Origin: Armatimonadota bacterium
GTDB taxonomy: Bacteria; Armatimonadota; Fimbriimonadia; Fimbriimonadales; Fimbriimonadaceae
Assembly: GCA_037138755.1 (NCBI GenBank)
Contig: JBAXHT010000003.1
Location: forward strand, 186,001-250,000
Direction: 5' to 3'
DNA length: 64,000 nucleotides
Shown: in pieces, positions 47,236 to 62,398 of the stretch
Layout: every line of letters begins with the position of its first letter
Position numbering within the stretch: position 1 is the first letter of the stretch
Notes under the pieces: generated by a model
What the model was told of the DNA's origin: nothing
The model's database searches: none
The model's input: the letters and a program-made list of their open reading frames with translations, nothing else
Made by a program: the position numbers and the translations under genes

Positions 47236-47307
47236 TGGTGGGCGGTGCGGGACTTGAACCCACGACCCCTTCGGTGTGAACGAAGTGCTCTACCACTGAG
47301 CTAACCG
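47236..47307 (-). repeat. attachment site, 3' remnant of tRNA-Val (left end)
   Basis: 72 bases identical to the tRNA-Val at 62.3 kb. Its 5' end reads ATACGGTTAG instead of GGGCGGTTAG, so three of seven acceptor-stem pairs are lost and it should not be a working tRNA. It marks the chromosome-side junction after birA. Confidence 0.9.
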
Positions 47308-47759: not shown

Positions 47760-50009
47760 ATGAAATTTCGCAAACCTACTCAATCAACTACTGGGCAACT
47801 TAAGCCTGATCACCTCGAACAACTGAAGTCTTCTGGAATCTCAGAAGAAGTGATCGCCGAAAGAGGCTACGAAACCGTAACGGAACAGGAAAAGTTGAAG
47901 AACTTGGGCTTTCCTTGGTATCAGGCCCTAGTTCCAACACTTCTAATTCCTCTCCACCCAGTCGGGGACAATCCGAACGGAGCTGAATTTGTCAGCCGTC
48001 CAGACAAACCACGTCATGGCGAAAAAGGAAAGCTCATCAAGTATGAGGCTCCGGCTGATTTCGAGGTACCGATTGACTGCCCTCCAAGGTGCAAAGATGA
48101 TCTCGAAGACGCAACCGTTCCCCTATTTGTCACTGAGGGAATAAAGAAGGCCGATTCAGCGGCCTCAAAGGGCCTTTGTTGTGTGGCTCTCCTGGGCGTC
48201 TGGCAGTTTAGGAATCACGAGTGGGATTCTATCGAGCTAAAGCGTCGCAAAGTTTACATAGCTTTTGATTCCGATTCAATCGAAAATGCTCATGTAAACG
48301 ACGCGGCAAATAAGCTCAGAAGCTACTTGCGAGGTTTAGGAGCTACGGTTGTTAGACTCTTCATACCTTCCGGGCCGAACGGAGAAAAGGTTGGGTTGGA
48401 CGACTACTTTGCAAACGGAGGAACGCCAGAGGAGTTAGTCACTTTCACACAAAGGTTTAGAAGTGGAAAGCTCAAAATTCGGGCTGATCTTCCAACCATC
48501 GAAAGCCACGAAGAACGCCTCGAAGAAATGGTTGACAGTTCGATTCAGGCTTTGGTGGACAAAAATGATCCTCCGTATCTGTTCGTTTATGGGAGTCGGT
48601 TGTCTAGGCTCAAACGGTGTGAAGTCAATGGAGTCATGCTTCCTCAAATCGAAGACGGAACCAAGGATGTAATCATTGACCGTCTGAGTCAGTGTGTGAA
48701 CTATGTGAGTGTGAGTTCCAGTGGAAGGAGGATTGTCAATCCCCCAGATATTGTTGCTCGAATGATAACAGCACGACCTGAGCTACCGGGAATTCCATCA
48801 ATCAAGGGAATTGCCACTTCCCCATTCTTTTCCAGAGATGGAAAGCTGATCTCAGAGCCGGGGTTCGATCCAGAAACCGGGGTTTTCTTGTTCATCCGGG
48901 ACGGCCTGAGATTGCCAAAGCTGGACACTTCCAAAGAAGGTGTTGCAAGGGCCGTTGATCTGATCGAGGACTTGATTTGCGATTTCCCTTTTGAAGATGG
49001 CTCTTCAAAATCTCATGCAGTCGCATTTTTGATTACACCGTTTGTTCGGGAAATGATCCACGGCCCAACCCCAATGTTTCTCTTCAACGCTCCCAAGCCG
49101 GGGAGCGGGAAGACTCTTCTCATGACAACGCTTGCAAGAGTGTTCGTTGGCGATGCAGTAGCGTTCACATCGGCCCCCCAATTTGAGGAAGAATGGCGAA
49201 AGCGATTAACTTCGCTTTTCAAAGAGGGAGTTACACACGGACTTTTCGATAATCTGGCAAAGTTCGGAAGCGAAGCACTCAACACGGCTCTAACTGCACC
49301 GGACTGTATTTGGAAGGATCGTCTACTCGGACGGAATGAGACCCCTCACTTACCAATTCGATGTACCTGGGGAGCAACAGCAAACAACTTCGAGGGGACT
49401 GAGGAAGAGCTTCGAAGATGTATCAACATTCGGATAAACCCCAATGACGAAAACCCAGCTTCCAGACGTGGTTTCAAACACGCTGATTTGAAGCGATTTG
49501 CGGAATCAAATCGGCCCCAACTTTTAGGAGCGGTTGTAACCATCGTCAAAGCTTGGGTGGAGGCTGGTCAAGCCGAGTACTCAGAGACCGAACCTCTCAT
49601 GGGAAGTTTTGAGAACTTCTGCCGAATCGTTGGTGGAATTCTTGAGTTCGCTGGTTACCCTGGATTTCTCAGTAATCGTGAGGAATTCCTTGAACAATCA
49701 GACATTGAAACAGAACAGCACAAAGGGTTCATTCAGGCGTGGTCGGACAGATACGGCAAATCCCTCGTTCGAGCAAGAGACCTTCAGGATATGGCTTGCA
49801 ACCATTACCCCGAAATAGATGTCCTCTCTCCGACGGTGGCAAGAGTCCAACTTGGAAGACTTCTCGGAAAACTGAGAGATCAAGTGATTCTTGGAAAGAG
49901 AATTTGTCGAAAGCAGAGTGACGAAGGATTCCGATATTGGCTTGCTGATGCAGTCAAACCGGGGAAAAGGGTTGCAACCGGGTACATCGGCGAAGACGAT
50001 CCTATCTAG
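47760..50009 (+). CDS. primase/helicase-like replication protein
   Basis: 749 residues. The N-terminal part resembles DUF3854/TOPRIM-like primase proteins of phages and plasmids (LFVTEGIKKADSAASKGLCCVALLGVW, then VYIAFDSDS, where Glu and the DxD-like acidic pair fit TOPRIM). The central part has a P-loop ATPase (FNAPKPGSGKTLLMTTLARV). AGAAGGA lies ahead of the ATG. It probably starts replication of the excised element. No origin was identified. Confidence 0.75.
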   Translation: MKFRKPTQSTTGQLKPDHLEQLKSSGISEEVIAERGYETVTEQEKLKNLGFPWYQALVPTLLIPLHPVGDNPNGAEFVSRPDKPRHGEKGKLIKYEAPADFEVPIDCPPRCKDDLEDATVPLFVTEGIKKADSAASKGLCCVALLGVWQFRNHEWDSIELKRRKVYIAFDSDSIENAHVNDAANKLRSYLRGLGATVVRLFIPSGPNGEKVGLDDYFANGGTPEELVTFTQRFRSGKLKIRADLPTIESHEERLEEMVDSSIQALVDKNDPPYLFVYGSRLSRLKRCEVNGVMLPQIEDGTKDVIIDRLSQCVNYVSVSSSGRRIVNPPDIVARMITARPELPGIPSIKGIATSPFFSRDGKLISEPGFDPETGVFLFIRDGLRLPKLDTSKEGVARAVDLIEDLICDFPFEDGSSKSHAVAFLITPFVREMIHGPTPMFLFNAPKPGSGKTLLMTTLARVFVGDAVAFTSAPQFEEEWRKRLTSLFKEGVTHGLFDNLAKFGSEALNTALTAPDCIWKDRLLGRNETPHLPIRCTWGATANNFEGTEEELRRCINIRINPNDENPASRRGFKHADLKRFAESNRPQLLGAVVTIVKAWVEAGQAEYSETEPLMGSFENFCRIVGGILEFAGYPGFLSNREEFLEQSDIETEQHKGFIQAWSDRYGKSLVRARDLQDMACNHYPEIDVLSPTVARVQLGRLLGKLRDQVILGKRICRKQSDEGFRYWLADAVKPGKRVATGYIGEDDPI

Positions 50010-50789: not shown

Positions 50790-51344
50790 CTACTTCAGAA
50801 TTTGGAGCCGTAGGGCCTCAAAATTTTCCGTGAATTTCCGAGCATCCGAACGCTTCTCAAACTGAAACGACACGGACTTTACAAGCTTCTTACTCTCACG
50901 GGGCTGAATCTCCGACGGATCATTTGGTTTAACCTCAGCAATCTTTTGAACCTCTTTCAGTTCTAATTCCCCCGTGAATAGAATCTGAGCTTCAAACCAC
51001 TTGGTTCCTTCGAGAGGTTCAACCTTTAGCTCCTTTACATTCTGCCAGGGGATCGTCGCAGTTCTGGTCACGACTAAGGTCGTTGTTCCAGATCGTGGTG
51101 AAATACTCTTTCGGCGGTAAGTTGTTTCGAATCCAAATTCAGACTTGGTGCATGTCTTGATTCGAGTGAAGAGGGTCTCACTTCGGGTCTGTATGGAAGT
51201 ATTGTCTTCTAACTGGTCTCTAAAATCTTCGAACTGCTTTTTTAGATTTTCTGGCACCTCAATTCGCGGCTCCTTCTCCCGCTCTTGATAGTAGGAAACA
51301 GCACTTGATAAGGAGAGAATCGAAGCACAAAGAAGAGCACCCAT
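50790..51344 (-). CDS. exported hypothetical protein of the element
   Basis: 184 residues with an N-terminal hydrophobic stretch (MGALLCASILSLSSAVSYY), probably a signal peptide or anchor. The rest is charged and strand-rich (TTLVVTRTATIPWQNVKELKVEP). It is the only other minus-strand gene of the element besides the integrase. No family is recognised. Confidence 0.6.
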   Translation of the reverse strand: MGALLCASILSLSSAVSYYQEREKEPRIEVPENLKKQFEDFRDQLEDNTSIQTRSETLFTRIKTCTKSEFGFETTYRRKSISPRSGTTTLVVTRTATIPWQNVKELKVEPLEGTKWFEAQILFTGELELKEVQKIAEVKPNDPSEIQPRESKKLVKSVSFQFEKRSDARKFTENFEALRLQILK

Positions 51345-51404: not shown

Positions 51405-51662
51405 ATGTTGCCAGCCAGACACAAGATAATCTCCGATATTGAGCATGTCCGATTCGGCGCATATATGCGTTCGGTCCGAGAGTCCGTTGGTGTGTCCCAG
51501 CGGGAGTTAGCAAAGCTTTTAAACTTGCCACAAAGCTATGTTTCCAAGATTGAGCGTGGAGAACGACAACTTCAAGCCCTTGAGCTGATCGAACTTTGCC
51601 GACTCCTGAAAGTGAATCCAGTCGATATTCTAAAGGGCTACGTTACAACTCCCTCGGACTAA
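51405..51662 (+). CDS. Xre-family regulator (controller-protein-like)
   Basis: 85 residues, of which residues 20-80 are a helix-turn-helix of the Xre/Cro type (MRSVRESVGVSQRELAKLLN, QSYVSKIERGERQL, LELIELCRLLKVNPVDILKG). Its size and position before an R-M-like operon fit controller (C) proteins that time restriction genes. The ATG at 51405 or 51465 could be the start. The element's promoter region with inverted repeats lies downstream. Confidence 0.8.
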   Translation: MLPARHKIISDIEHVRFGAYMRSVRESVGVSQRELAKLLNLPQSYVSKIERGERQLQALELIELCRLLKVNPVDILKGYVTTPSD

Positions 51663-52153
51663 CATCGGGTAGCCCTGGACTGTTTCCAAAAATGTTAAGG
51701 CTTTTGGCCGAATCATGCTCCCAAACGATGCTTTGAGATAACACTTGTATAAAGCAGACTAAATATACTAGCCAAAGCTCTACATCCCTGTGTCAAGAAC
51801 CGTTGACATTGCCGGGTATAATCTTTGCACTCAATCCGAATCAGATTCTGTAGACCAATGATGGCTTCACGATTCGTTGAGGAATTTCAGAGAATTTCAG
51901 TCATGTATTGACTTGCCTGACGTCACTCTGTCATTCTGTAATGATTTGGCCCGCTCCCATACGGGTAACGGGCCGAAATCGAGTTTCATTTTTTCTCTGC
52001 GCTAACAGAGAACCCGACCAATCTGGCGAACCAATTTGACAGGCCTCCGTATTATGACGGTAGGTTTACAGAAATGTAAACCCTTTACTTACATGATATG
52101 GCAAGATTGCTTGCTTCAAATTGGTTCTGTCATCTACCTAGACCGAACTGATA
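51663..52153 (+). promoter_or_regulatory. long leader/regulatory region before the R-M-like operon
   Basis: About 490 bases without a gene. It contains three hairpins: GGCCCG...CGGGCC (51948-51974), TTCTCTG...CAGAGAA (51993-52012) and a perfect operator-like repeat at 52063-52082. TTGACA boxes at 51803 and 52036 are each followed eight bases later by TATAAT or TATTAT, which is too close for a sigma-70 promoter but notable. A 25-base segment at 51663 recurs at 61231. Confidence 0.6.
52063..52082. promoter_or_regulatory. inverted repeat, possible Xre operator
   Basis: GGTTTACA-GAAA-TGTAAACC, an 8-bp perfect inverted repeat with a four-base centre, 71 bases before the DUF2130 gene. It could be an operator of the adjacent Xre regulator or a GAAA-capped RNA hairpin in the leader. 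Confidence 0.6.
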
Positions 52154-53479
52154 ATGAATACAACATCTAATTCAGCACTCGCCGTCATTGATACGGCCTC
52201 TACCGAACTCGTCGTCACCTGCCCAGCATGTGACCATGAATTTGAGATTGCGGGAAGCATTCTCTCCAAGCTTCAGCAAGAAGCAAAAGCCACCCTCCAA
52301 GCGTGGCAGTCGGACTTCCTTTCGAAGCACCGAGAACGCGAAAAGCAACTTTCCGAGAAAGAAGAGGCACTGAAGCAAAGTGCCGCAGAACAAGCGAAGC
52401 TCGTTGAACAGCAGGTTGCAGAGCAACTTGCCACACGGTTCAAGGCCGAATATCCAGACCTGATCAAAAAGGCCAAACAGGACGCCCAGCTAGAGGCAGA
52501 GAAGCAGGTGCAGTCGGTTCAGGCTGATCTTGATGCAAAGTCAGAACAGATCGCACAGCTTCAGGCCTCGCAAGCTGACCTTTTGAAAGAGAAGCGCGAA
52601 CTCAAAGCAAAGCAGGATCAATTCGAGCTTGATAAGCAAATTGCAATCAGTAAAGCTATCCAAGAGGAGTCAGCGAACCTTCAAAAGTCGATCTCCGAGA
52701 AGTTTGACACGCAATTCCAGGTTCAAAAAGTCGAACTCGATAGAGCAAGAAAGACCATTGACGAACTCAACGAGAAACTTAAGGCAAAGCCATCTCAAGA
52801 ACTCCAAGGTGAGGCCCTTGAATTGGATTTGGAAGCCAAGCTTGGTGAAGAGTTCCGAACGGATGAATTCACGCCGGTCAAAAAAGGCCAACGAGGAGCG
52901 GACATTCTTCAGGTTGTCAACAACCGACTGTCCCAACCTTGTGGTTCGATTCTCTGGGAGACAAAAAGGGCTCAGAACTGGGGTGGGGATTGGATTCAAA
53001 AACTCAAGCAAGATCAACGAGAAGAACGGGCAACCGTGGCAATCATCGTTTCACAAGTGACCCCTGCTGGAGTTGACACTTTTGACATGGTTGAGGGGGT
53101 GTGGATTGTAAAGCCGCAATACGCAGTTGCTCTTGCAATTGCAATTCGTGAAGGGATTCTCCAGACTTCGGAGGCACGAAAGGCCGCAGAAGGGATTGAA
53201 TCAAAAGCGACTCTTGTTTACAGCTACCTGATGGGAGAAGATTTTAAGAGTCGTTTTGGGGCTATTGTCGAAACATTCGTGACAATGCAAAAGCAACTTA
53301 TCAAAGAGAAGATTGCTGCTACCAAAGCCTTTAATCAGCGGGAGAAGCAACACGAAACGGTTTTGAAAGCTTGTTTTGGTGTGATCGGTGATCTTCAAGG
53401 CATCGCTGGGCAAGATCTCAAATCCCTCGAAGAAATCGAGTTAAAGGCGTTGCCCTCCGGCGACGAGGAGGAGAACTAA
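52154..53479 (+). CDS. DUF2130 protein: coiled coil plus PD-(D/E)XK-like domain
   Basis: 441 residues. A CPACDHEFE zinc-like knuckle near residue 22 is followed by a long coiled coil (about 35-225) and a DUF2130 domain. In that domain GADIL (Asp250) and ILWETKR (Glu269, Lys271) form the D-x18-ExK pattern of PD-(D/E)XK nucleases, and the segment WIQKLKQDQREERATVAIIV is typical for DUF2130. It is first in the operon and its stop is followed at once by the next start. DUF2130 proteins have no settled role; nuclease activity is inferred. Confidence 0.8.
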   Translation: MNTTSNSALAVIDTASTELVVTCPACDHEFEIAGSILSKLQQEAKATLQAWQSDFLSKHREREKQLSEKEEALKQSAAEQAKLVEQQVAEQLATRFKAEYPDLIKKAKQDAQLEAEKQVQSVQADLDAKSEQIAQLQASQADLLKEKRELKAKQDQFELDKQIAISKAIQEESANLQKSISEKFDTQFQVQKVELDRARKTIDELNEKLKAKPSQELQGEALELDLEAKLGEEFRTDEFTPVKKGQRGADILQVVNNRLSQPCGSILWETKRAQNWGGDWIQKLKQDQREERATVAIIVSQVTPAGVDTFDMVEGVWIVKPQYAVALAIAIREGILQTSEARKAAEGIESKATLVYSYLMGEDFKSRFGAIVETFVTMQKQLIKEKIAATKAFNQREKQHETVLKACFGVIGDLQGIAGQDLKSLEEIELKALPSGDEEEN

Positions 53480-54439
53480 GTGGCGAAGTCGCTAGAAAAC
53501 GTTCTTGTGGTTGCCATTTCTTCAAGAGCTTTGTTTGACTTCGAGGAGGAGAACAAAATCTTTGATGAGAGTTCTGGCGACCACTCCGAGCGAGAGGAGA
53601 GATATATGCAACTTCAAAAAGAGCGGTGGGAGATTCCTGCCGAACCTTCTGTTGGCTTCCAGCTTTGCCGAAAGCTACTCTCGATGAACGCTGACGGAAC
53701 CAAACGTACTGAGGTCGTGGTCATTTCTCGAAATGACCCGATCAGTGGAGCAAGAGTTTTCCGAAGTGCTCAACATCACAATTTAGCCCTCACACGAGGT
53801 GCGTTTGTTCGTGGGGACGATCCCTTTTTGTATCTCGAACCATTTAAAGCCAAGTTGTTTCTTTCCGCAAAACCTGAAGACGTGAAAAAGGCCCTCGAAA
53901 TGAATATCCCAGCCGCGACAGTGTTTCCAAGAGTCGTTGGTGACGATCCTCACCCAAACGAACTGCGGATTGCATTTGACGGCGATTCGGTGCTTTTCAG
54001 CGACCAAGCAGAGCGAGTCTATAAGGAGCAAAAGCTGGAGGCATTCATGACTCATGAAGTTCAGAACGCGTCCCTCCCCCTTCCCCCAGGCCCTCTGCAA
54101 CCGTTTCTGAGCGCACTCCATTCTCTACAGAACTCACTACCCAAAGGATCAGGATGCCGAATCAAAACGGCTCTTGTAACAGCTCGTGGTGCTCCGGCAC
54201 ATGAAAGAGCACTAAAAACTCTGTTGCATTGGGGAATTCAGGTAGATCAGGCCCTCTTCCTTGATGGCCTAGAAAAGCGACCGTTCTTGGACGTTTTTCA
54301 GCCTGATTTCTTCTTTGACGATCAGCTCGCGCATATCAACCCTGCAATGGGAACTACACCATCGGGCCATGTGCCCTACGGGATTGCCAACGAAGCACCC
54401 GTTTCTGAGACGACCACTCAAGACAAGGAGAAAAATTAA
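53480..54439 (+). CDS. 5'-nucleotidase (cN-I family)
   Basis: 319 residues, GTG start directly after the DUF2130 stop, with GAGGAGGAG upstream. It matches the cytosolic 5'-nucleotidase I family: LSMNADGTKRTEVVVISRNDP, the LRIAFDGDSVLFSDQAERV core near residue 165, ALVTARGAPAHERAL and FFFDDQLAH with the acidic C-terminal motif. The expected reaction is dephosphorylation of (d)NMPs. Its place between a nuclease-like gene and an R-M module suggests nucleotide depletion or signal-nucleotide removal, which is inference. Confidence 0.82.
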   Translation: MAKSLENVLVVAISSRALFDFEEENKIFDESSGDHSEREERYMQLQKERWEIPAEPSVGFQLCRKLLSMNADGTKRTEVVVISRNDPISGARVFRSAQHHNLALTRGAFVRGDDPFLYLEPFKAKLFLSAKPEDVKKALEMNIPAATVFPRVVGDDPHPNELRIAFDGDSVLFSDQAERVYKEQKLEAFMTHEVQNASLPLPPGPLQPFLSALHSLQNSLPKGSGCRIKTALVTARGAPAHERALKTLLHWGIQVDQALFLDGLEKRPFLDVFQPDFFFDDQLAHINPAMGTTPSGHVPYGIANEAPVSETTTQDKEKN

Positions 54440-54440
54440 A

Positions 54441-55076
54441 ATGGCATTAGCACTCGCAGATAATCGACGGACTCCCTCAGCACTGGAGATTAGCCAGTTG
54501 CACGACAAACCAGCCGCTCAATGGGAGCGGAAAATTCGAGAACTAGAAGAAGAGAAGAAGTATCGAGTTTTGGAGTACCTCCCTATTCGGAAGGCGATCA
54601 TCTCCGAACTGGAAACTCCAGGATCAGGAAAAGCCGTTTTGGTTGAAGAATTGGACGGGTACAACTCGGGATTCTCTACCGACTCCATGATTAAGACCAT
54701 GAAGGACGGCTTTAATCTGTTCATGTCGAAGAACAGAAAGGTCTTCACCGGAATCTACAGCGAAAATGTTCGGAACTCAAATCCTTACCGGATTCGACTT
54801 GGTGGAGGAGAAGTCAAAGTAACACTTCACGCTGAAGTGGAGCACTCCAGGTACGGAAGAAAGAGACTCTTCATCTATTCCTCACAATACTCTCGGCCCG
54901 AGGTCAATGCACTTCAGGAGTTGCTTGGTATGGTTGCCGAACAAAGAGACAATGGTACAGCCGAAGACGTTCTTTGGCTTGATCTCAGAGCGGGCACCGT
55001 TTCAAAGCTAAAGTCGCGCTCTTCTGTTAGGGCGAATTTGGTTGATACGGTCAACCTTTACAACAAGCTCTTCTGA
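54441..55076 (+). CDS. hypothetical protein of the R-M-like operon
   Basis: 211 residues from ATG 54441, ten bases after AAGGAG; the longer frame upstream overlaps the nucleotidase gene and is not used. Residues 25-45 form a charged helix (WERKIRELEEEKKYRVLEYL), followed by a mixed alpha/beta region (GGGEVKVTLHAEVEHSRYGRK). No family is recognised. It is 46 bases before the methyltransferase gene. Confidence 0.75.
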   Translation: MALALADNRRTPSALEISQLHDKPAAQWERKIRELEEEKKYRVLEYLPIRKAIISELETPGSGKAVLVEELDGYNSGFSTDSMIKTMKDGFNLFMSKNRKVFTGIYSENVRNSNPYRIRLGGGEVKVTLHAEVEHSRYGRKRLFIYSSQYSRPEVNALQELLGMVAEQRDNGTAEDVLWLDLRAGTVSKLKSRSSVRANLVDTVNLYNKLF

Positions 55077-55122
55077 GGGCAGTTTGTAAGATTGAAATAA
55101 GGGTAAGAAGATTGAATCTAAG

Positions 55123-57249
55123 ATGAGTGAACAGAAACCTTGGGGGCCGGAGAATCCTCATCCGTTGAGTCGGATGAAGACGGAGCTTGTTTGGGAAGGC
55201 AAGTACGACGAATATGGTCGGCGGCGGGAAATTCAACTTCCGAACTTTCCATTGGTGCTCCAGAAGGTTGAAACCATTGATGAACCCAGAGATAGAGAAA
55301 GGGCTGAACAGGGGAATCTTTTCGATGAAGGTGCGTTCACCAAATCTGCACACCGAGATGATTTTCGAAATCGACTCATCTGGGGTGACAACAAGCTTGG
55401 CCTGTCTGCCCTACTCAATGATTACCGAGGCAAAGCGAAATTGATATACATTGATCCTCCGTTCGATGTCGGATTGGATTTTGGCACCAGAGTAAGAATT
55501 GGTGACGGCTCAGACAGATTTGCAAAGGATCAATCGATTTTGGAAGACGTCGCTTACAGAGACACATGGGGGCAATTTGGGGAGGCGTACCCTAGCTTTT
55601 TGAGTGAACGGCTCTCCGTAGCCCGAGACTTATTGTCCGAAGACGGATTCATAGTGGTACATGTGGGTGATAAAGTTGGCCCAGTCGTTAGAGGAATTCT
55701 GGAGACCATATTTGGAGCAGAAAACTACCGATCCACCATTATTGTTAGGCGCGGTACAAAGAATGTCCAATCCCAATTTGAGAACATCTCAGCACTTTCA
55801 GTTGGGCACGACTATTTGTTTCTCTTCTCAAAGCGGAAGTCGTCAAAGCTCAAAAAACTGACTCTACCTGGAGAGGATGCAAAGCCTGGAAAGTGGGACA
55901 CGTTTTGGCGCGGGACCGACAGACCCACCATGAGATATGAGTTGCTCGGTGTGAAACCTAATTCGGGCCAATGGAGGTGGAAAGAACAGCGGGCCCAGAA
56001 AGCAATCGACAACTACAGTGAGTTCCTCGACAGTGACGAGGAAAGCCTGGATGCCTACTATACACCTCGCTCCGATGAGGGTATCGAGCTAGATTTCCTT
56101 AGACTCAGCGACGACGGAGTTGTTCAATATTTTGTCCCTCCGCGTGACTACAAACTAGCCAGCACAAACTGGACCAGCCTTAGAACGGTTGGGAGTAGCA
56201 CCGACTACGATACCGAAAAGCATGAAGAACTCTTGCATATTGTTGTAAGTTGGCTGACTGATGATTCTGACTTGGTTTTGGATTTCTTTTGTGGCTCTGG
56301 TACGACCTTGGCTGTTGCCGAAGAATTGAACAGAAAGTGGATTGGGATTGACCTCGGCAGATACGCAGTCCACACAACAAGAAAGCGACTCATCGGCGTT
56401 CAACGCGAGCTACACAAAGCGAATCTGCCATATCGTTCATTCGACGTTTACAATCTTGGACGCTACGAACGGCAATGGTGGCAAGCAGAGAGATTGAAAG
56501 GGGCGAATGAAGAGCATCGAGCCACTGTTCTGAAATTCTTCAGAGCAAACACGATTCAAAACCCGCCCAGTGGATTGATCCACGGAACGAAGGGAGGAGC
56601 TTACGTTCATATCGATAACATCGATAGTATTTTCACGATCAATGAGCTTCGAGAGGTGGCGAAATCGATAGCTTCGGTTGAGGGCCTGGAAGATTGGCAG
56701 AATCACGGCACAGTGCTAGGAAGCAGAAACAAGCCAAAGCTGATTGTGCTTGCCTGGGAGTTTGAGATGGACCTTCGACGAAGAGTTGAGGGGGTTGAAG
56801 CCGAAACTGGAGTCGAAATAACGCTCAAATACATTCCTCGTGAAATCATGGAGCCGAACAGGGATACCGTTCAGTTCTTCGATGCGGCGGCCCTCGATGC
56901 TGAAGTCTTGGTTTCCGAGGTTGACGGAAAGAAGCAAATTGATGTGAAACTCACCAACTTCTATCCAGCCCTTACCGAGGTGCCGGACCGGGAACTCAAC
57001 GCACTGAAAGAGCGAGCAGTCAAATCCCCTTTTGATTTCATTGATTTCTGGGCGGTGGACTTTGACTACCAGGAGAACAAACCTTTTGAACACCACTGGC
57101 AGGACTACCGAACTCGCAAAGATCGCTCCCTAAAAGCGTTTTCCGATCTTGGTTGGGAATACGAGACCCCAGGGACCAAAAGAATCTGTGTGAAAGTAAT
57201 CGACGTTTTCGGAATCGATACAACCAAGGTGATTGAGGTGAAGGTTTGA
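55123..57249 (+). CDS. DNA methyltransferase, type III Mod-like (beta class)
   Basis: 708 residues. The catalytic motif IV DPPF is at about residue 111, before the AdoMet motif I (VLDFFCGSGTTLAVAEELNRKWIGIDL) near 388, the order of beta-class N6-adenine or N4-cytosine methyltransferases and of type III Mod subunits. The region between should hold target recognition, and a C-terminal domain of about 260 residues follows. It overlaps the GIY-YIG gene by four bases. In the family, Mod recognises the site and works with Res. Confidence 0.92.
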   Translation: MSEQKPWGPENPHPLSRMKTELVWEGKYDEYGRRREIQLPNFPLVLQKVETIDEPRDRERAEQGNLFDEGAFTKSAHRDDFRNRLIWGDNKLGLSALLNDYRGKAKLIYIDPPFDVGLDFGTRVRIGDGSDRFAKDQSILEDVAYRDTWGQFGEAYPSFLSERLSVARDLLSEDGFIVVHVGDKVGPVVRGILETIFGAENYRSTIIVRRGTKNVQSQFENISALSVGHDYLFLFSKRKSSKLKKLTLPGEDAKPGKWDTFWRGTDRPTMRYELLGVKPNSGQWRWKEQRAQKAIDNYSEFLDSDEESLDAYYTPRSDEGIELDFLRLSDDGVVQYFVPPRDYKLASTNWTSLRTVGSSTDYDTEKHEELLHIVVSWLTDDSDLVLDFFCGSGTTLAVAEELNRKWIGIDLGRYAVHTTRKRLIGVQRELHKANLPYRSFDVYNLGRYERQWWQAERLKGANEEHRATVLKFFRANTIQNPPSGLIHGTKGGAYVHIDNIDSIFTINELREVAKSIASVEGLEDWQNHGTVLGSRNKPKLIVLAWEFEMDLRRRVEGVEAETGVEITLKYIPREIMEPNRDTVQFFDAAALDAEVLVSEVDGKKQIDVKLTNFYPALTEVPDRELNALKERAVKSPFDFIDFWAVDFDYQENKPFEHHWQDYRTRKDRSLKAFSDLGWEYETPGTKRICVKVIDVFGIDTTKVIEVKV

Positions 57250-57710
57250 TTATCCAAGGGTTCGATTTCGTTGACTTAGGAGAAATCGACTTTCTTAGAG
57301 ACGAAACAGGGGAGATTCAACAACTGCACCCCCAACAGCTTTTCTCAAATCCGGATGGGCTTTCACTCCATCGGTATGGAGATTTGGAATACTGCAAGTT
57401 CTCCGTTCCGGGTTTGCCCAAAGGCCCTGGTGTCTATGCCTTTGCCACGAAAGAAGAAGTGCTCTACATCGGAAAAGCGTCAAAAATATCGAAAAGATTT
57501 ATGCCGGGGTATCGGTCGATTTCACCGAGAATGTGCTTCACGAGAGGCCCTGAAACTACCTGTCGAATCAATGCGACCATACTAGCCGAAGCGTTAAAAG
57601 GGGTCCGACTACATGTCCATGTGTTTGAAACAGCAGAATATGGAAAGGTCGAAGAAGCTTTGCTGAAAGTTCTTACCCCTAAGTGGAATCGAGCAGGGGT
57701 GATTCGATGA
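57246..57710 (+). CDS. GIY-YIG nuclease-domain protein
   Basis: 154 residues from a TTG start that overlaps the mod stop, supported by GAGGTGA upstream. The GIY-YIG pattern is seen as GVYAFATKEEVLYIGKA (residues about 61-77), with a basic residue in KRFMPGYRS and the later Glu and Asn in EEALLKVLTPKWN. An intact active site is therefore plausible. It sits between mod and res and overlaps both by four bases (GIY-YIG stop and res ATG form ATGA). This placement inside a type III-like pair is unusual. Confidence 0.85.
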   Translation: MIIQGFDFVDLGEIDFLRDETGEIQQLHPQQLFSNPDGLSLHRYGDLEYCKFSVPGLPKGPGVYAFATKEEVLYIGKASKISKRFMPGYRSISPRMCFTRGPETTCRINATILAEALKGVRLHVHVFETAEYGKVEEALLKVLTPKWNRAGVIR

Positions 57711-60700
57711 GCAAAGGCTTCGCGGCCCTTGAACCGTTGTATGCTCCATGGGAAGAACCCAACAAACATCGCGTCAAAGGCGTTGGAATCGTCCCAGGCC
57801 GGCGAGCTTCAAGAACTGTTCTTGCCCCGTACATCCGAAGCCAGGTTTCAGACTGGAGACATTCAGGATATGAGGGAGCTTCTGAGACCACAAAAACCCT
57901 TCTGAATCATTGGTTTGAAACCGCCCATGAGGACGACTTCCGTTATCACTTCTGCCAACGAGAAGCAGTGGAAACGATTATTTGGCTTGCGGAAGTCAAA
58001 CGCTATTTGATCCCTTCGGACTTGTTCAGCTCAATTCTTCCTGAAGAAGACAAACGTTATACAGCACTAACCAATATCAAACCAGAGGATGATTTGTGGG
58101 CTAGATATTGCTCAAAGCTCGCTACCGGAGCCGGGAAAACTAAGTGCATGAGCTTGGTTATGGCTTGGAGCTACTTCCATAGCCTTTACGAATCCAACTC
58201 CATCTTTCCTCGGCACTTCGTAGTTGTCGCACCAAACTTAATCGTTTTTGATCGGCTTAAAGACGACTTCGAATCAGCGAAGATTTTTTACTCCGATCCG
58301 ATCCTTCCACCAGAGTTCAGAGACGACTTCAACGTTCAAGTCGTCATGCAAGACGACTCAGGAGCCGGAAGCTACCAGGGCACAATCTACCTAACGAACA
58401 TTCACAGGCTGTTTCCCAAGAATTCCGACAATGAAAACAGTGTCGGAAACTCTAGTTTGCTCGGGCCAACGGTAAACAAGAACCAAGTTTTCAAGGTTGG
58501 CGAAGTCCTACGGAATCGAATATCAGCCCACCCTTCCGTGATGATCTTGAACGATGAGGCACATCATCTTCACGATCCAGAATCCGCTTGGAACGAGGCC
58601 ATCGATGCGATCCATCATCAAAGCCTCACGAAAGGAAATCGAGGAGTTGTCCTTCAAGCAGACTTTACTGCGACACCCAAACACAACAACGGAGACCTTT
58701 TCCGGCATATCGTCAGTGACTTTCCACTGGGAGAGGCAGTTGACGCGGGAATTGTCAAAGTTCCGGTCATTGGACGATCCGAGGAAATCAAAGCGAATGA
58801 CGCGGCAGGAGACGCATTCGAAAAGTACCGAACCCACTTGCTACTGGGCTATCAGCAGTATCAATACATGTGGGAAGAGTGGAGCAAGGTTCGAAAACCG
58901 ATTCTCTTCGTAATGTGCGAGACGGCTCAAGCCGCGAACGAAATTGCAGCGAAGCTGAATAACGATGAGCGTTTCCCACTACTCAATGGAAAAGTGCTCA
59001 ATCTTCACACTCGACTAGAGGGCAAGATTGTTACTCGAAATCCGGGAAAGAACGAGTGGAAAGAGTTCGTCTATTCGGAATCGAAGCTCAAAGACGATGA
59101 TCTTAAAGAAATCCGCCGTTGGTCGGCTGATCTGGACAAGGCTGAATCGCCTTATCGATGCGTTGTCTCGGTGCTTATGCTCAGAGAAGGATGGGACGTT
59201 CGGAATGTCACTACAATTGTTCCTCTACGACCATATACAGCGAAATCGAACATCCTCGCGGAACAAACTCTAGGCCGTGGTCTTCGACGTATGGAACGGC
59301 CCGGCCCAGATGCCGCTTTCGAAAGGGTGACCGTTGTTGAGCATCCCTCAATGCTCGCACTTTACAATGAAGAACTTGAGCAAGAAGGGCTAGAGATAGG
59401 TGAAATCGATCTTGATGAGCGGAAACCCCAGACAGTTCCGATCTTTATTGATCCAAAGAAGGATGCTGAAAAGCTGGATATTGTGATTCCTCAGGTTTCA
59501 GATTCTATCGAGACAACCGTCACACTGAATGAAATCAAATTCGAGCAAATCGAGGCTCAGTTCAAAAAGATTTCTAGCGGAAAACTTCCCGTTGGTAAAG
59601 CAAAAGATGGGGCAATCAAATTTGAGGAGCGAACCCTTTTCACCGATGAGGTAGTTAAGAGTTATGAGATTGACCGAGGACTACTTGCCCAAGGTTACAC
59701 GGCTGTTTCGGTTTTCGTGAAAGTTCTTGAAAGGGCCTGTCGGCTCCAAGGTTCTCACGCAACACTCTCACCGCTGGTTCAAAGATTCATCGAAGAAACG
59801 CTCTTTGATCGAAAGGTAAATCTGTATCAGGGAGAGGTTGATCATCGTCTAGGAGACATCGATGTCAGAGAGCACATCGAAGCCACATTTGCACCACTGA
59901 TCAAGAGTCAAACAAACAAAGAAACTAAGCGTAAAAAGCAGAGTTCAGGATTTGCCCTTTCATCATGGAGAGCCTTTCAAGCAACTCAAAGTCAAAAACG
60001 TCCCTGCGATGAAGCGGAGAAAACAATCTTCAATCTGGTGGCCTGCTCGAACTACTTTGAAGCAGAGTTTGCGGCCTTCTGTGACGACTGCCTTGATGTA
60101 GTCGCATTTGCCAAAAATACTGGCCCCCAGAAGCTGGCAATCGATTACCTCTCGATGAATGGTCGGCCCTCGCTCTATTGGCCTGATTTCTTTGTGAAGT
60201 CGGCGGCGGGAATCAACTACCTTGTTGAAACCAAGGGTCAAGAGGATACTTCTGTTGCATTGAAAGCGAAGGCCGCTATCGAATGGTGTAAGGCCGCAAC
60301 ACATGGGGACCAAAAGTGGGAATACGCATTCATTCCCCAATATCTGTTTGATCAGAACACTGAGCCTTCATTAGAAGGGCTTCTACGGGCATGTGAACCG
60401 AAGAAGAAGGCTCTTCTGGAATCCTTAAAATCAGCCCAACTGGTGCTTCCGCTAGAGGCAACTTCAGGCGAAATTCGAGCACAAAAATCTTCAGAATTTT
60501 TGGGTGCAACCGATGTTTCGATCCTGCCGGACTCTATTCTTCAACTTGTCAATCACAGTATCGTTCTCCTCGATTACGACAAGAGAATGCAGAGTCCAAG
60601 ATACGGAGCTTGCTTCCAGACACTTTTAGAGGCTCTCGAAAACTTGTGTGGAGCTTCGCTCATTTCGCTTGCAACTCCGTTCATCCCGCAGAACATGGCA

Positions 60701-61096
60701 GAACACAAGACTTTCTTTGAGCCTTACTATGCTGGTTCAAACGAGGCTATTCTTCGGGATCAAGGGAGAAAGCTTCGAAGAAACGTGGTTGACCGGGGGC
60801 GGTCAAACCTACTCGGCAATTTCCTGTTCATGCTTGGCTTCTCTCGTCAATCCAAATTCGATTCCGTCTCTGGAATCGCCTTGTGGGATTCAGTTAGGTT
60901 AGCTTTTGGAAAGCCCGAGTTTGACGGCTTGTACGATCAACTCTCCACATGCAACAACTTCAGAAACAAATACATCGCGCATGGCGATACACCATTGACT
61001 GACCCCAAGGTCGCTGAAGAAAATTTGCACATGTGGATAGAGTGCATCATAAGGCTGTTCGAAGTCACAAAATCCCTTGGCCTCAAAACACCCTAG
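57707..61096 (+). CDS. Res-like helicase-nuclease with C-terminal HEPN-like domain
   Basis: 1129 residues from the ATG at 57707. It has SF2 motifs LATGAGKTK (about 139), LNDEAHH (about 282), ADFTATP and LGRGLRRM (about 521), then a PD-(D/E)XK site YWPDFFVK...LVETKG (824-841). This is the order of type III Res subunits. The last about 190 residues are helical and contain FRNKYIAHGD, an Rx5H motif (R1086, H1092) typical for HEPN RNases. It forms a module with mod and the GIY-YIG gene. Activity of the HEPN part is inferred. Confidence 0.88.
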   Translation: MSKGFAALEPLYAPWEEPNKHRVKGVGIVPGRRASRTVLAPYIRSQVSDWRHSGYEGASETTKTLLNHWFETAHEDDFRYHFCQREAVETIIWLAEVKRYLIPSDLFSSILPEEDKRYTALTNIKPEDDLWARYCSKLATGAGKTKCMSLVMAWSYFHSLYESNSIFPRHFVVVAPNLIVFDRLKDDFESAKIFYSDPILPPEFRDDFNVQVVMQDDSGAGSYQGTIYLTNIHRLFPKNSDNENSVGNSSLLGPTVNKNQVFKVGEVLRNRISAHPSVMILNDEAHHLHDPESAWNEAIDAIHHQSLTKGNRGVVLQADFTATPKHNNGDLFRHIVSDFPLGEAVDAGIVKVPVIGRSEEIKANDAAGDAFEKYRTHLLLGYQQYQYMWEEWSKVRKPILFVMCETAQAANEIAAKLNNDERFPLLNGKVLNLHTRLEGKIVTRNPGKNEWKEFVYSESKLKDDDLKEIRRWSADLDKAESPYRCVVSVLMLREGWDVRNVTTIVPLRPYTAKSNILAEQTLGRGLRRMERPGPDAAFERVTVVEHPSMLALYNEELEQEGLEIGEIDLDERKPQTVPIFIDPKKDAEKLDIVIPQVSDSIETTVTLNEIKFEQIEAQFKKISSGKLPVGKAKDGAIKFEERTLFTDEVVKSYEIDRGLLAQGYTAVSVFVKVLERACRLQGSHATLSPLVQRFIEETLFDRKVNLYQGEVDHRLGDIDVREHIEATFAPLIKSQTNKETKRKKQSSGFALSSWRAFQATQSQKRPCDEAEKTIFNLVACSNYFEAEFAAFCDDCLDVVAFAKNTGPQKLAIDYLSMNGRPSLYWPDFFVKSAAGINYLVETKGQEDTSVALKAKAAIEWCKAATHGDQKWEYAFIPQYLFDQNTEPSLEGLLRACEPKKKALLESLKSAQLVLPLEATSGEIRAQKSSEFLGATDVSILPDSILQLVNHSIVLLDYDKRMQSPRYGACFQTLLEALENLCGASLISLATPFIPQNMAEHKTFFEPYYAGSNEAILRDQGRKLRRNVVDRGRSNLLGNFLFMLGFSRQSKFDSVSGIALWDSVRLAFGKPEFDGLYDQLSTCNNFRNKYIAHGDTPLTDPKVAEENLHMWIECIIRLFEVTKSLGLKTP

Positions 61097-61261: not shown

Positions 61262-62299
61262 CTATCGTTTCAAGGCTTGAACAGGGCTGAATTGACGGTG
61301 CTGGTTCTGAATGTCGGCTTGGGCAAGGCTAACGTACCTGTTAGTCATGGCTAGATCGGTATGACCCAACATTTCCTTCAGGGTGAAAACGCTCCCCCCG
61401 GCTCGAAGAAACATCACGGCGAACGTATGCCTCAGAGTATGAGGGGAACAACGAACGGCCTCGATCTTAGCCGATTCTCCGAGTCTTTCCAAGATTTGAC
61501 GAACTCCATAGCGAGTAAATCTTTCCCCACGTTTCGATTCGAAAAGAGGTGATGCCTGTTCAAGTTCTCTTTCTCGCAAGTATCGCCATAGGACTCTTCC
61601 AGTTTCCCGGCTGAAATAGATCGCCCGATGTTTGTTTCCCTTCCCTCGAACAATGGCCTTTCTATTCACGATGTCAATATCTGAATAATCCAGTTCGCAA
61701 AGCTCACTGACTCGAACTCCAGTATCGAGCATGAAAAGAACAAGGGCTTCATCTCTCCTAGGATGCTGAGTTTGCTTCGAAACCTTCAACAACTTTTGAA
61801 CCTGTTCAGCCGAGAATGGTTGAATCTGGTCAGCCCGATGAACTGGAGGCTTCAAATTCTGCATCGGTGACTCTGAAATGTATCCTTCAGCTACCAGGAA
61901 TCGAAAGAAGGTTCGAAGAATGCCATACACGTCTTTAACCGTTCGAGCATTCACCGGAGCTTTCAAACTCGAATTTCCCCAGCGGCCCTCTTCATCCTTG
62001 TGTCCGTTCGCAACGTAGCCAAGAAAGGCCCGAATTTCGAACGTTCCGCATGACTGTAAACCTTCGGTTTCGAGCCACCAAGCTAACTTATCTAAGAAGT
62101 GACGACGGAGCGAAAGTGTGTTTGGACTGAGCTGACGGTATTCCCCGTCAAGTATCCATCCTTTAGCGAATCGGCGAAGATCATTGATTCCAATTGTGGA
62201 ACCAGAATTGAGTGAACGAAGTGCTGTCTGCAAGTTTCTAGGTCTCGTTTTGGTGGTCGATGGAAGACCAAAACTGAGAACGAAGTGCTGAATTTGCAC
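61262..62299 (-). CDS. tyrosine recombinase (site-specific integrase)
   Basis: 345 residues. The catalytic set is visible: Arg196 in DTGVRVSEL, Lys in VRGKGNKHR, His287 and Arg290 in HTLRH, His313 in LGHTD and Tyr322 in TNRYVSL. An N-terminal SAM-like core-binding domain precedes it. It is XerD-like in style. It lies 27 bases from the tRNA-Val attachment site and reads away from it, so it is the obvious integrase of the element. Confidence 0.95.
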   Translation of the reverse strand: MQIQHFVLSFGLPSTTKTRPRNLQTALRSLNSGSTIGINDLRRFAKGWILDGEYRQLSPNTLSLRRHFLDKLAWWLETEGLQSCGTFEIRAFLGYVANGHKDEEGRWGNSSLKAPVNARTVKDVYGILRTFFRFLVAEGYISESPMQNLKPPVHRADQIQPFSAEQVQKLLKVSKQTQHPRRDEALVLFMLDTGVRVSELCELDYSDIDIVNRKAIVRGKGNKHRAIYFSRETGRVLWRYLRERELEQASPLFESKRGERFTRYGVRQILERLGESAKIEAVRCSPHTLRHTFAVMFLRAGGSVFTLKEMLGHTDLAMTNRYVSLAQADIQNQHRQFSPVQALKR

Positions 62300-62326: not shown

Positions 62327-62398
62327 TGGTGGGCGGTGCGGGACTTGAACCCACGACCCCTTCGGTGTGAACGAAGTGCTCTACCACTGAGCTAACCG
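62327..62398 (-). repeat. attachment site within tRNA-Val (right end)
   Basis: Second copy of the 72-bp repeat. It restores a complete tRNA because the chromosomal 5' end (GGG) is retained on this side. Confidence 0.9.

Follow-up and report, generated by a model that had tools for sequence, protein, structure and literature searches.

The window, by which we mean the whole stretch of 64,000 nucleotides analysed here, carries six consecutive open reading frames on its plus strand between positions 52,154 and 61,096, with spacings of 0, 1, 46, −4 and −28 bases between successive genes. These coordinates bear out an earlier, sequence-only reading of the locus, which had described six same-strand genes that overlap or are separated by at most 46 bases. 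The order and identities that it gave to the genes (a DUF2130 coiled-coil protein, a cN-I 5'-nucleotidase, a protein without an assigned family, a beta-class methyltransferase, a GIY-YIG protein and a Res-like helicase-nuclease) were recovered with Pfam, PADLOC and NCBIfam and by reading of the motifs, the GIY-YIG match of gene 5 being weak. The operon lies inside an island of 15,091 bp that is bounded by two copies of tRNA-Val (Table 1). Its host is an Armatimonadota bacterium close to Fimbriimonas, with Fimbriimonadaceae ACE_ARM8 and a Fimbriimonas ginsengisoli bin as the nearest named matches.

Table 1. Features of the island and its six-gene operon (positions in the window; a dot marks an unassigned strand).
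Feature	Position	Strand	Support
Left island end: tRNA-Val (cac) copy, exact 72-bp direct repeat	47236..47307	-	
DUF3854 primase/helicase-like island protein	47760..50009	+	PF12965 E 1e-14
Xre-type regulator, like R-M controller proteins	51405..51662	+	HTH_3 E 3e-14; PADLOC Control_protein E 3.5e-10
Conserved structured element, several hairpins, ~150 bp	51938..52085	. (either strand may be RNA; minus slightly favoured)	Model R1, fold z-scores, pair counts
Promoter-like site, points leftwards, TTTACA-18-CATAAT, overlaps palindrome 52063-52082	52051..52080	-	
Gene 1: DUF2130 coiled-coil protein, PD-(D/E)XK-like motif (D250, E269-x-K271)	52154..53479	+	PF09903 E 7e-56
Gene 2: cN-I type 5'-nucleotidase, active-site motifs present	53480..54439	+	PF06189 E 6e-112; PADLOC PDC-S08 E 8e-120
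Gene 3: 211-aa protein, predicted Cas4/RecB-like PD-(D/E)XK fold, catalytic residues apparently lost	54441..55076	+	
Gene 4: beta-class type III-like Mod methyltransferase, central recognition region exchanged	55123..57249	+	N6_N4_Mtase E 6e-30
Gene 5: GIY-YIG-like protein, TTG start	57246..57710	+	Weak UvrC-type match E 3e-5; motif
Gene 6: type III-like Res, long 1137-aa form, SF2 helicase and C-terminal PD...ExK	57683..61096	+	ResIII E 2e-13
XerC/XerD-like tyrosine integrase, adjoins right tRNA-Val	61262..62299	-	PF00589 E 1.6e-38; XerC/XerD models
Right island end: tRNA-Val (cac) copy, exact 72-bp direct repeat	62327..62398	-	

The GC content of the island is 0.48, compared to 0.54 in the part of the window to its left. 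An integrase gene sits beside a tRNA gene and a direct repeat marks the opposite border, the arrangement by which integrative elements at tRNA genes are recognised. In two congeners (G016 and G001), a tRNA-Val 100% identical to this one is found near the genes of the right flank, and the 15 kb are lacking. A clean empty site was not found in either genome, the left flank not being conserved there. Judged by these sequence features, the island is mobile. Neither its borders, with their 72-bp repeat, nor the structured element upstream of gene 1 had appeared in the sequence-only reading.

The DUF2130 protein contains a WETKR motif, identified by reading. Pfam found no RmuC domain in it, the domain that ShdA of the Shield system carries. 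Its build resembles that of RmuC-type nucleases and, with less certainty, it may cut or bind DNA in the same way. The nucleotidase matched positions 15–318 of the 323 in the PDC-S08 model of PADLOC, and its DGD, TARG and DDQ motifs were intact by reading.

Gene 3 had no family match in Pfam, PADLOC or NCBIfam. A structure model, for which three sequences were available and which reached a modest confidence (pLDDT 67), was compared with known structures. Foldseek placed the Argonaute-associated Cas4 protein ACE1 at the top (E 1.9e-5), followed by Dna2, AdnA and AddAB chains, while VIA-align gave Dna2 a Z-score of 9.7 (rmsd 6.1, 185 residues aligned) and ACE1 one of 8.8 (rmsd 3.9, 150 aligned), and almost all rows below these two belonged to the same nuclease superfamily. 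The acidic and lysine residues expected of such a nuclease were not conserved in the alignment of the three sequences, and gene 3 therefore probably encodes an inactive Cas4/RecB-like fold. No homologue was detected among the genes of about 200 codons that adjoin cN-I in Caballeronia and Arcobacter, or on the plasmids searched, and viral contigs yielded no confirmed match for gene 3 or for this DUF2130 clade.

Mod and Res have the sequence hallmarks of type III restriction-modification (R-M). In Mod, DPPF (residue 111) comes before FCGSG (389), so that motif IV precedes motif I as in the beta-class N6-adenine methyltransferases of type III systems, and the PADLOC model MTase_III matched at E 1e-215. 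The central recognition region is variable: between the window and genome G169, both end portions of Mod are 86–97% identical and the middle only 19–40%, which is the pattern expected of exchanged recognition domains. Res, encoded after mod, combines SF2 helicase motifs (GAGKT at 149, DEAH at 291) with a PD-(D/E)XK nuclease (PDFFV at 834, ETKG at 849). It matched REase_III of PADLOC at E 2e-28 and scored 286 bits against the BPTD_3080 family (NF046055), under the curated cut-off of 800.

The operon of the window (G000) was compared with those of a congener (G011), of members of two other genera (G024 and G169) and of two more distant genomes (G156 and G030). In G169, the order is DUF2130 (72% identical to the window), nucleotidase (43%), a 116-aa protein, a 338-aa protein, Mod, a 202-aa protein and Res (83%); the 202-aa protein occupies the GIY-YIG slot, differs from gene 5 and has an apparent membrane segment. 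In G024, one contig ends after DUF2130 (71%), nucleotidase (44–45%) and a 130-aa relative of the 116-aa protein of G169, and a second opens with Mod (91% identical across the C-terminal portion) directly followed by Res (84%), with no gene between the two. We infer that the two contigs represent one operon split by the assembly. The GIY-YIG gene between mod and res was seen only in the window among the operons compared. In G156, the genes after DUF2130 (36%) encode a metallo-beta-lactamase-fold protein, a protein of 234 aa, Mod and Res (56%), and in G030, DUF2130 (35%) is followed by five genes that include NYN and PIN domains, and then by Mod and Res. The combination of DUF2130 with mod-res is thus common to the three genomes with cN-I (G000, G024 and G169), to G156 with its metallo-beta-lactamase-fold gene and to G030 with NYN and PIN.

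G011 has genes 1–3 alone (DUF2130 64–65%, nucleotidase 86% and gene 3 71% identical to the window); its genome contains no homologue of the window Mod, and its matches to Res were weak and partial. Elsewhere in this long-Res clade, mod-res pairs occur with no adjoining DUF2130, indicating that the front module is dispensable. These two observations, a trio without mod-res and many mod-res pairs of the clade without DUF2130, would also be explained if the operon consisted of two independent cassettes, one with the upstream element, DUF2130, nucleotidase and gene 3 and the other with mod, GIY-YIG and res, lying side by side and co-transcribed with no functional link. We regard this as possible, if doubtful: the same order recurs in the window, G024 and G169, and DUF2130 together with other genes precedes the same mod-res clade in G156 and G030.

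The co-occurrence of all six families that the sequence-only reading proposed to look for was found in part. DUF2130 and the nucleotidase accompany this mod-res in the two other genera (complete in G169, split over two contigs in G024), but gene 3 is absent there, and an unrelated protein of 116–130 aa stands in its place. A conserved six-gene system did not emerge, since genes 1–3 occur by themselves in the congener and both the gene 3 and the GIY-YIG slots vary. The replacement of these two genes in relatives, together with the solitary trio, shows a modular operon with exchangeable parts. Rather than a fixed set of six genes, the locus is a type III-like R-M operon whose front cassette is exchangeable and whose structured leader is conserved.

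The histories of the first two genes are discordant. The window nucleotidase shares 86% identity with its G011 counterpart and about 44% with the one in G024, whereas the window DUF2130 is about 64% identical to that of G011 and 71% to that of G024. The DUF2130 and nucleotidase trees disagree accordingly, the DUF2130 branch being supported at 0.89 and the nucleotidase pair at 1.0. The discordance implies that a cassette was exchanged, and in the simplest reading of the sequences the swap would have taken place near the boundary between DUF2130 and nucleotidase.

The non-coding DNA 5' of DUF2130 is near-identical in the window, G024 and G169 and recognisable in G011, and in each genome the element folds better than dinucleotide-preserving shuffles. 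A covariance model, R1, was built from these four genomes. It matched G156, which lies outside the model, directly upstream of DUF2130 at E 1.2e-8, and G030 weakly, just 5' of DUF2130 (E 0.2, or 0.035 in a smaller search). Across 291 Armatimonadota genomes, R1 gave five confident matches, all at these operons, and three further ones with E 0.03–0.06 that are probably noise. The carriers of the element are six genomes only, all of one family. In an Rfam search of the window, only tRNA passed the gathering score, and nothing was matched at the position of the element up to E 1.

Paired changes on both sides of a stem were counted by script in hairpin 1 (columns 14/36 and 17/33) and hairpin 2. 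Several positions that form A-C mismatches in a plus-strand RNA become G-U pairs in its complement, and z-scores were lower for the minus strand in four of the six genomes, clearly so in three. An RNA on the minus strand is slightly favoured by these comparisons; the call is a leaning only, because the numbers are low and MAFFT aligned the later hairpins poorly. The minus-strand promoter-like site occupies the same position of the alignment in each of the six genomes, with 9–11 of 12 consensus matches, and its plus-strand counterpart is strong in G024 and G156 only; both are consensus matches, which in the whole window region are no commoner than expected by chance. The sites sit at the two ends of the element and face each other across about 100 bp. 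The palindrome that the leftward site overlaps in the window, GTTTACANNNNTGTAAAC, has no exact copy in the other loci. With promoter-like sites that face each other and hairpins that are slightly better on the minus strand, an antisense RNA probably limits expression of the operon, in a manner analogous to that of EcoRI.

The neighbours of other DUF2130 genes were also surveyed. Fifteen of the 19 Armatimonadota DUF2130 loci above the Pfam cut-off adjoin an effector-like gene, as judged by hand and without a matched control in the phylum: four have cN-I, one a metallo-beta-lactamase-fold gene, one NYN/PIN, two SIR2-HerA, two AAA_13/PDC-S06, two OLD-like genes and one PHP-SMC, and two are Res-OLD-DUF2130 operons. 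Among 60 Bacteroidota loci, drawn from the best-scoring matches and leaning to one DUF2130 clade, the immediate neighbours had no clear excess of PADLOC families over control genes, and DUF2130 as a general marker of defence was rejected on this account.

The survey bears on a reading in which the core of the defence would be DUF2130, the structured RNA and the exchanged gene, with mod-res optional, and in which the RNA, bound by DUF2130, would restrain the effector until infection, much as in RNA antitoxins or retrons. The element is indeed kept in the stand-alone trio and before three kinds of effector, and at some loci DUF2130 is paired with an effector of the SIR2-HerA, PrrC-like, OLD-like or PHP-SMC kind. 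However, R1 had no convincing match in Bacteroidota or at the DUF2130 loci with SIR2-HerA, OLD-like or PrrC-like genes, and promoter-like sites on both strands are better suited to regulation in cis. We consider this reading unlikely. We give a similarly low probability to the broader idea that the structured RNA and DUF2130 form a general control unit for varied effectors, one that would use the type III-like R-M as its sensor and fire when restriction fails. If true, it would amount to an RNA-containing, plug-in second line of defence with nucleotidase, metallo-beta-lactamase-fold or NYN/PIN effectors.

Metabolism and repair also employ nucleotidases of the cN-I type and RecB-like folds, and genes 1–3 might be cargo for DNA repair or nucleotide salvage carried alongside the R-M genes. 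In G140, cN-I has an ordinary chromosomal setting, and other cN-I genes, some in plasmid records, stand alone or beside metabolic genes. Against this, cN-I genes on plasmids adjoin Dsr1 and type I R-M, Hhe/HEPN/AbiH, SIR2 or other R-M genes, and PADLOC lists the family as a defence candidate. A role as repair or salvage cargo appears very improbable.

We favour, with a probability that we put a little above even, a mobile island with a type III-like R-M operon of constant frame and exchangeable slot, in which the nucleotidase is a second line and an antisense RNA limits expression. The frame would consist of the structured upstream element and DUF2130, with mod-res at the far end, and the slot would hold the effector genes between DUF2130 and mod, here the cN-I nucleotidase and the degenerate Cas4/RecB-like protein. 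Going by their families, Mod would mark the host DNA and Res would cut DNA that is unmarked. Less certainly, the nucleotidase may drain nucleotide monophosphates once restriction has failed. The antisense RNA would hold down the operon as the EcoRI reverse promoter does, and limited expression would help the island to enter an unmethylated host. The layered defence put forward in the sequence-only reading is likewise something that we infer.

An R-M operon with a fixed front and back and a swapped middle gene makes the idea of a back-up effector directly testable by cassette exchange, and it gives the candidate defence nucleotidase PDC-S08 a defined set of partners. With the upstream element, R-M regulation would come to include a structured RNA; none was found described for the phylum in the literature searched.

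We found no description of this arrangement in the databases searched, and PADLOC and literature searches returned no system with this gene set, as the sequence-only reading had supposed. Several known systems share parts of it. Gene 2 matches PDC-S08 over its whole length, but PDC-S08 is a single-gene candidate, whereas gene 2 sits in a DUF2130/R-M operon. The CARF-HAD phosphatase Chp depletes ATP and IMP (PMC12715507); it is a phosphatase effector that acts on purine nucleotides, as the window nucleotidase may be, but Chp is activated by cyclic oligoadenylate and the window nucleotidase has no CARF domain. In Shield, the RmuC-domain nuclease ShdA can degrade DNA in defence (PMC10270631). The likeness lies in a restriction-endonuclease-fold protein as a defence nuclease (a putative role in the window) and in variable accessory genes, with copies embedded in DISARM-like operons; the window protein differs in belonging to the DUF2130 family, in having no RmuC match and in sharing an operon with mod-res. 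Type III R-M systems share the beta-class Mod with DPPF before FCGSG and a long central variable region, the position of mod before res, and a Res with SF2 helicase and PD...ExK nuclease motifs. The window operon departs from them in its extra genes before mod and between mod and res, and in a Res that is 1137 aa long and scores low against the REase_III and BPTD_3080 models. In EcoRI, a reverse promoter and an 88-nt antisense RNA limit expression (PMC3874152, a review of R-M regulation). The window element differs in lying in the leader before DUF2130, in being strongly structured and in belonging to a type III-like operon, and its sites are known from sequence alone. With its facing promoters and a small antisense transcript that limits an R-M unit (all of them predicted in the window), the EcoRI reverse promoter is the closest precedent that we found for the element.

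The tRNA-Val site has served other insertions, since in two congeners it is occupied by a 178-aa gene in two copies around a 59-bp tRNA remnant. A minus-strand ORF of 184 aa separates the primase-like gene from the Xre gene in the window. In G169, a genome of another genus with DUF2130 and the nucleotidase before the same mod-res pair, a 201-aa ORF that by eye looks to be of a similar kind lies just upstream of the structured element.

The cN-I nucleotidase also occurs in other settings. At one locus it is adjoined by two proteins, one a coiled-coil protein of 500 aa, the other 692 aa long and with the look of a DUF2779/RecB-type nuclease; neither has a Pfam family over the cut-off. Plasmid defence clusters of E. 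coli and Vibrio contain cN-I genes as well, with Dsr1 and type I R-M, or with Hhe, HEPN, GIY-YIG and AbiH, as companions.

DUF2130 features in a second R-M layout, in which (Mod-)Res comes first, an OLD-like ATPase/TOPRIM gene next and a divergent DUF2130 gene last; the overlaps are short. At five loci it is followed immediately 3' by a PrrC-like AAA_13 (PADLOC candidate family PDC-S06), OLD-like or PHP-SMC gene, frequently with start/stop overlap.

Locations of the genes and arrangements described
Feature	Locus	Coordinates	Strand
184-aa ORF	window	50790-51344	minus
201-aa ORF, G169	L025	8115-8720	
Paired 178-aa genes	L179	8050-9767	
Paired 178-aa genes	L180	2307-4026	
cN-I, 692-aa and 500-aa proteins	L026	9496-13897	
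cN-I, plasmid cluster	L160	2048-7907	
cN-I, plasmid cluster	L164	1-12597	
(Mod-)Res, OLD-like, DUF2130	L034	5475-13581	
(Mod-)Res, OLD-like, DUF2130	L033	154-6106	
DUF2130 + PrrC-like/OLD-like/PHP-SMC	L031	3617-7459	
DUF2130 + PrrC-like/OLD-like/PHP-SMC	L095	9110-12717	
DUF2130 + PrrC-like/OLD-like/PHP-SMC	L030	8005-11192	
DUF2130 + PrrC-like/OLD-like/PHP-SMC	L096	6495-9602	
DUF2130 + PrrC-like/OLD-like/PHP-SMC	L098	6781-10963	
DUF2130, SIR2, HerA	L032	8378-12645	
DUF2130, SIR2, HerA	L094	6705-11006	

The genes of SIR2-HerA, a pair known from defence, come directly after DUF2130 in two Armatimonadota genomes, a placement that makes DUF2130 look like a third component.
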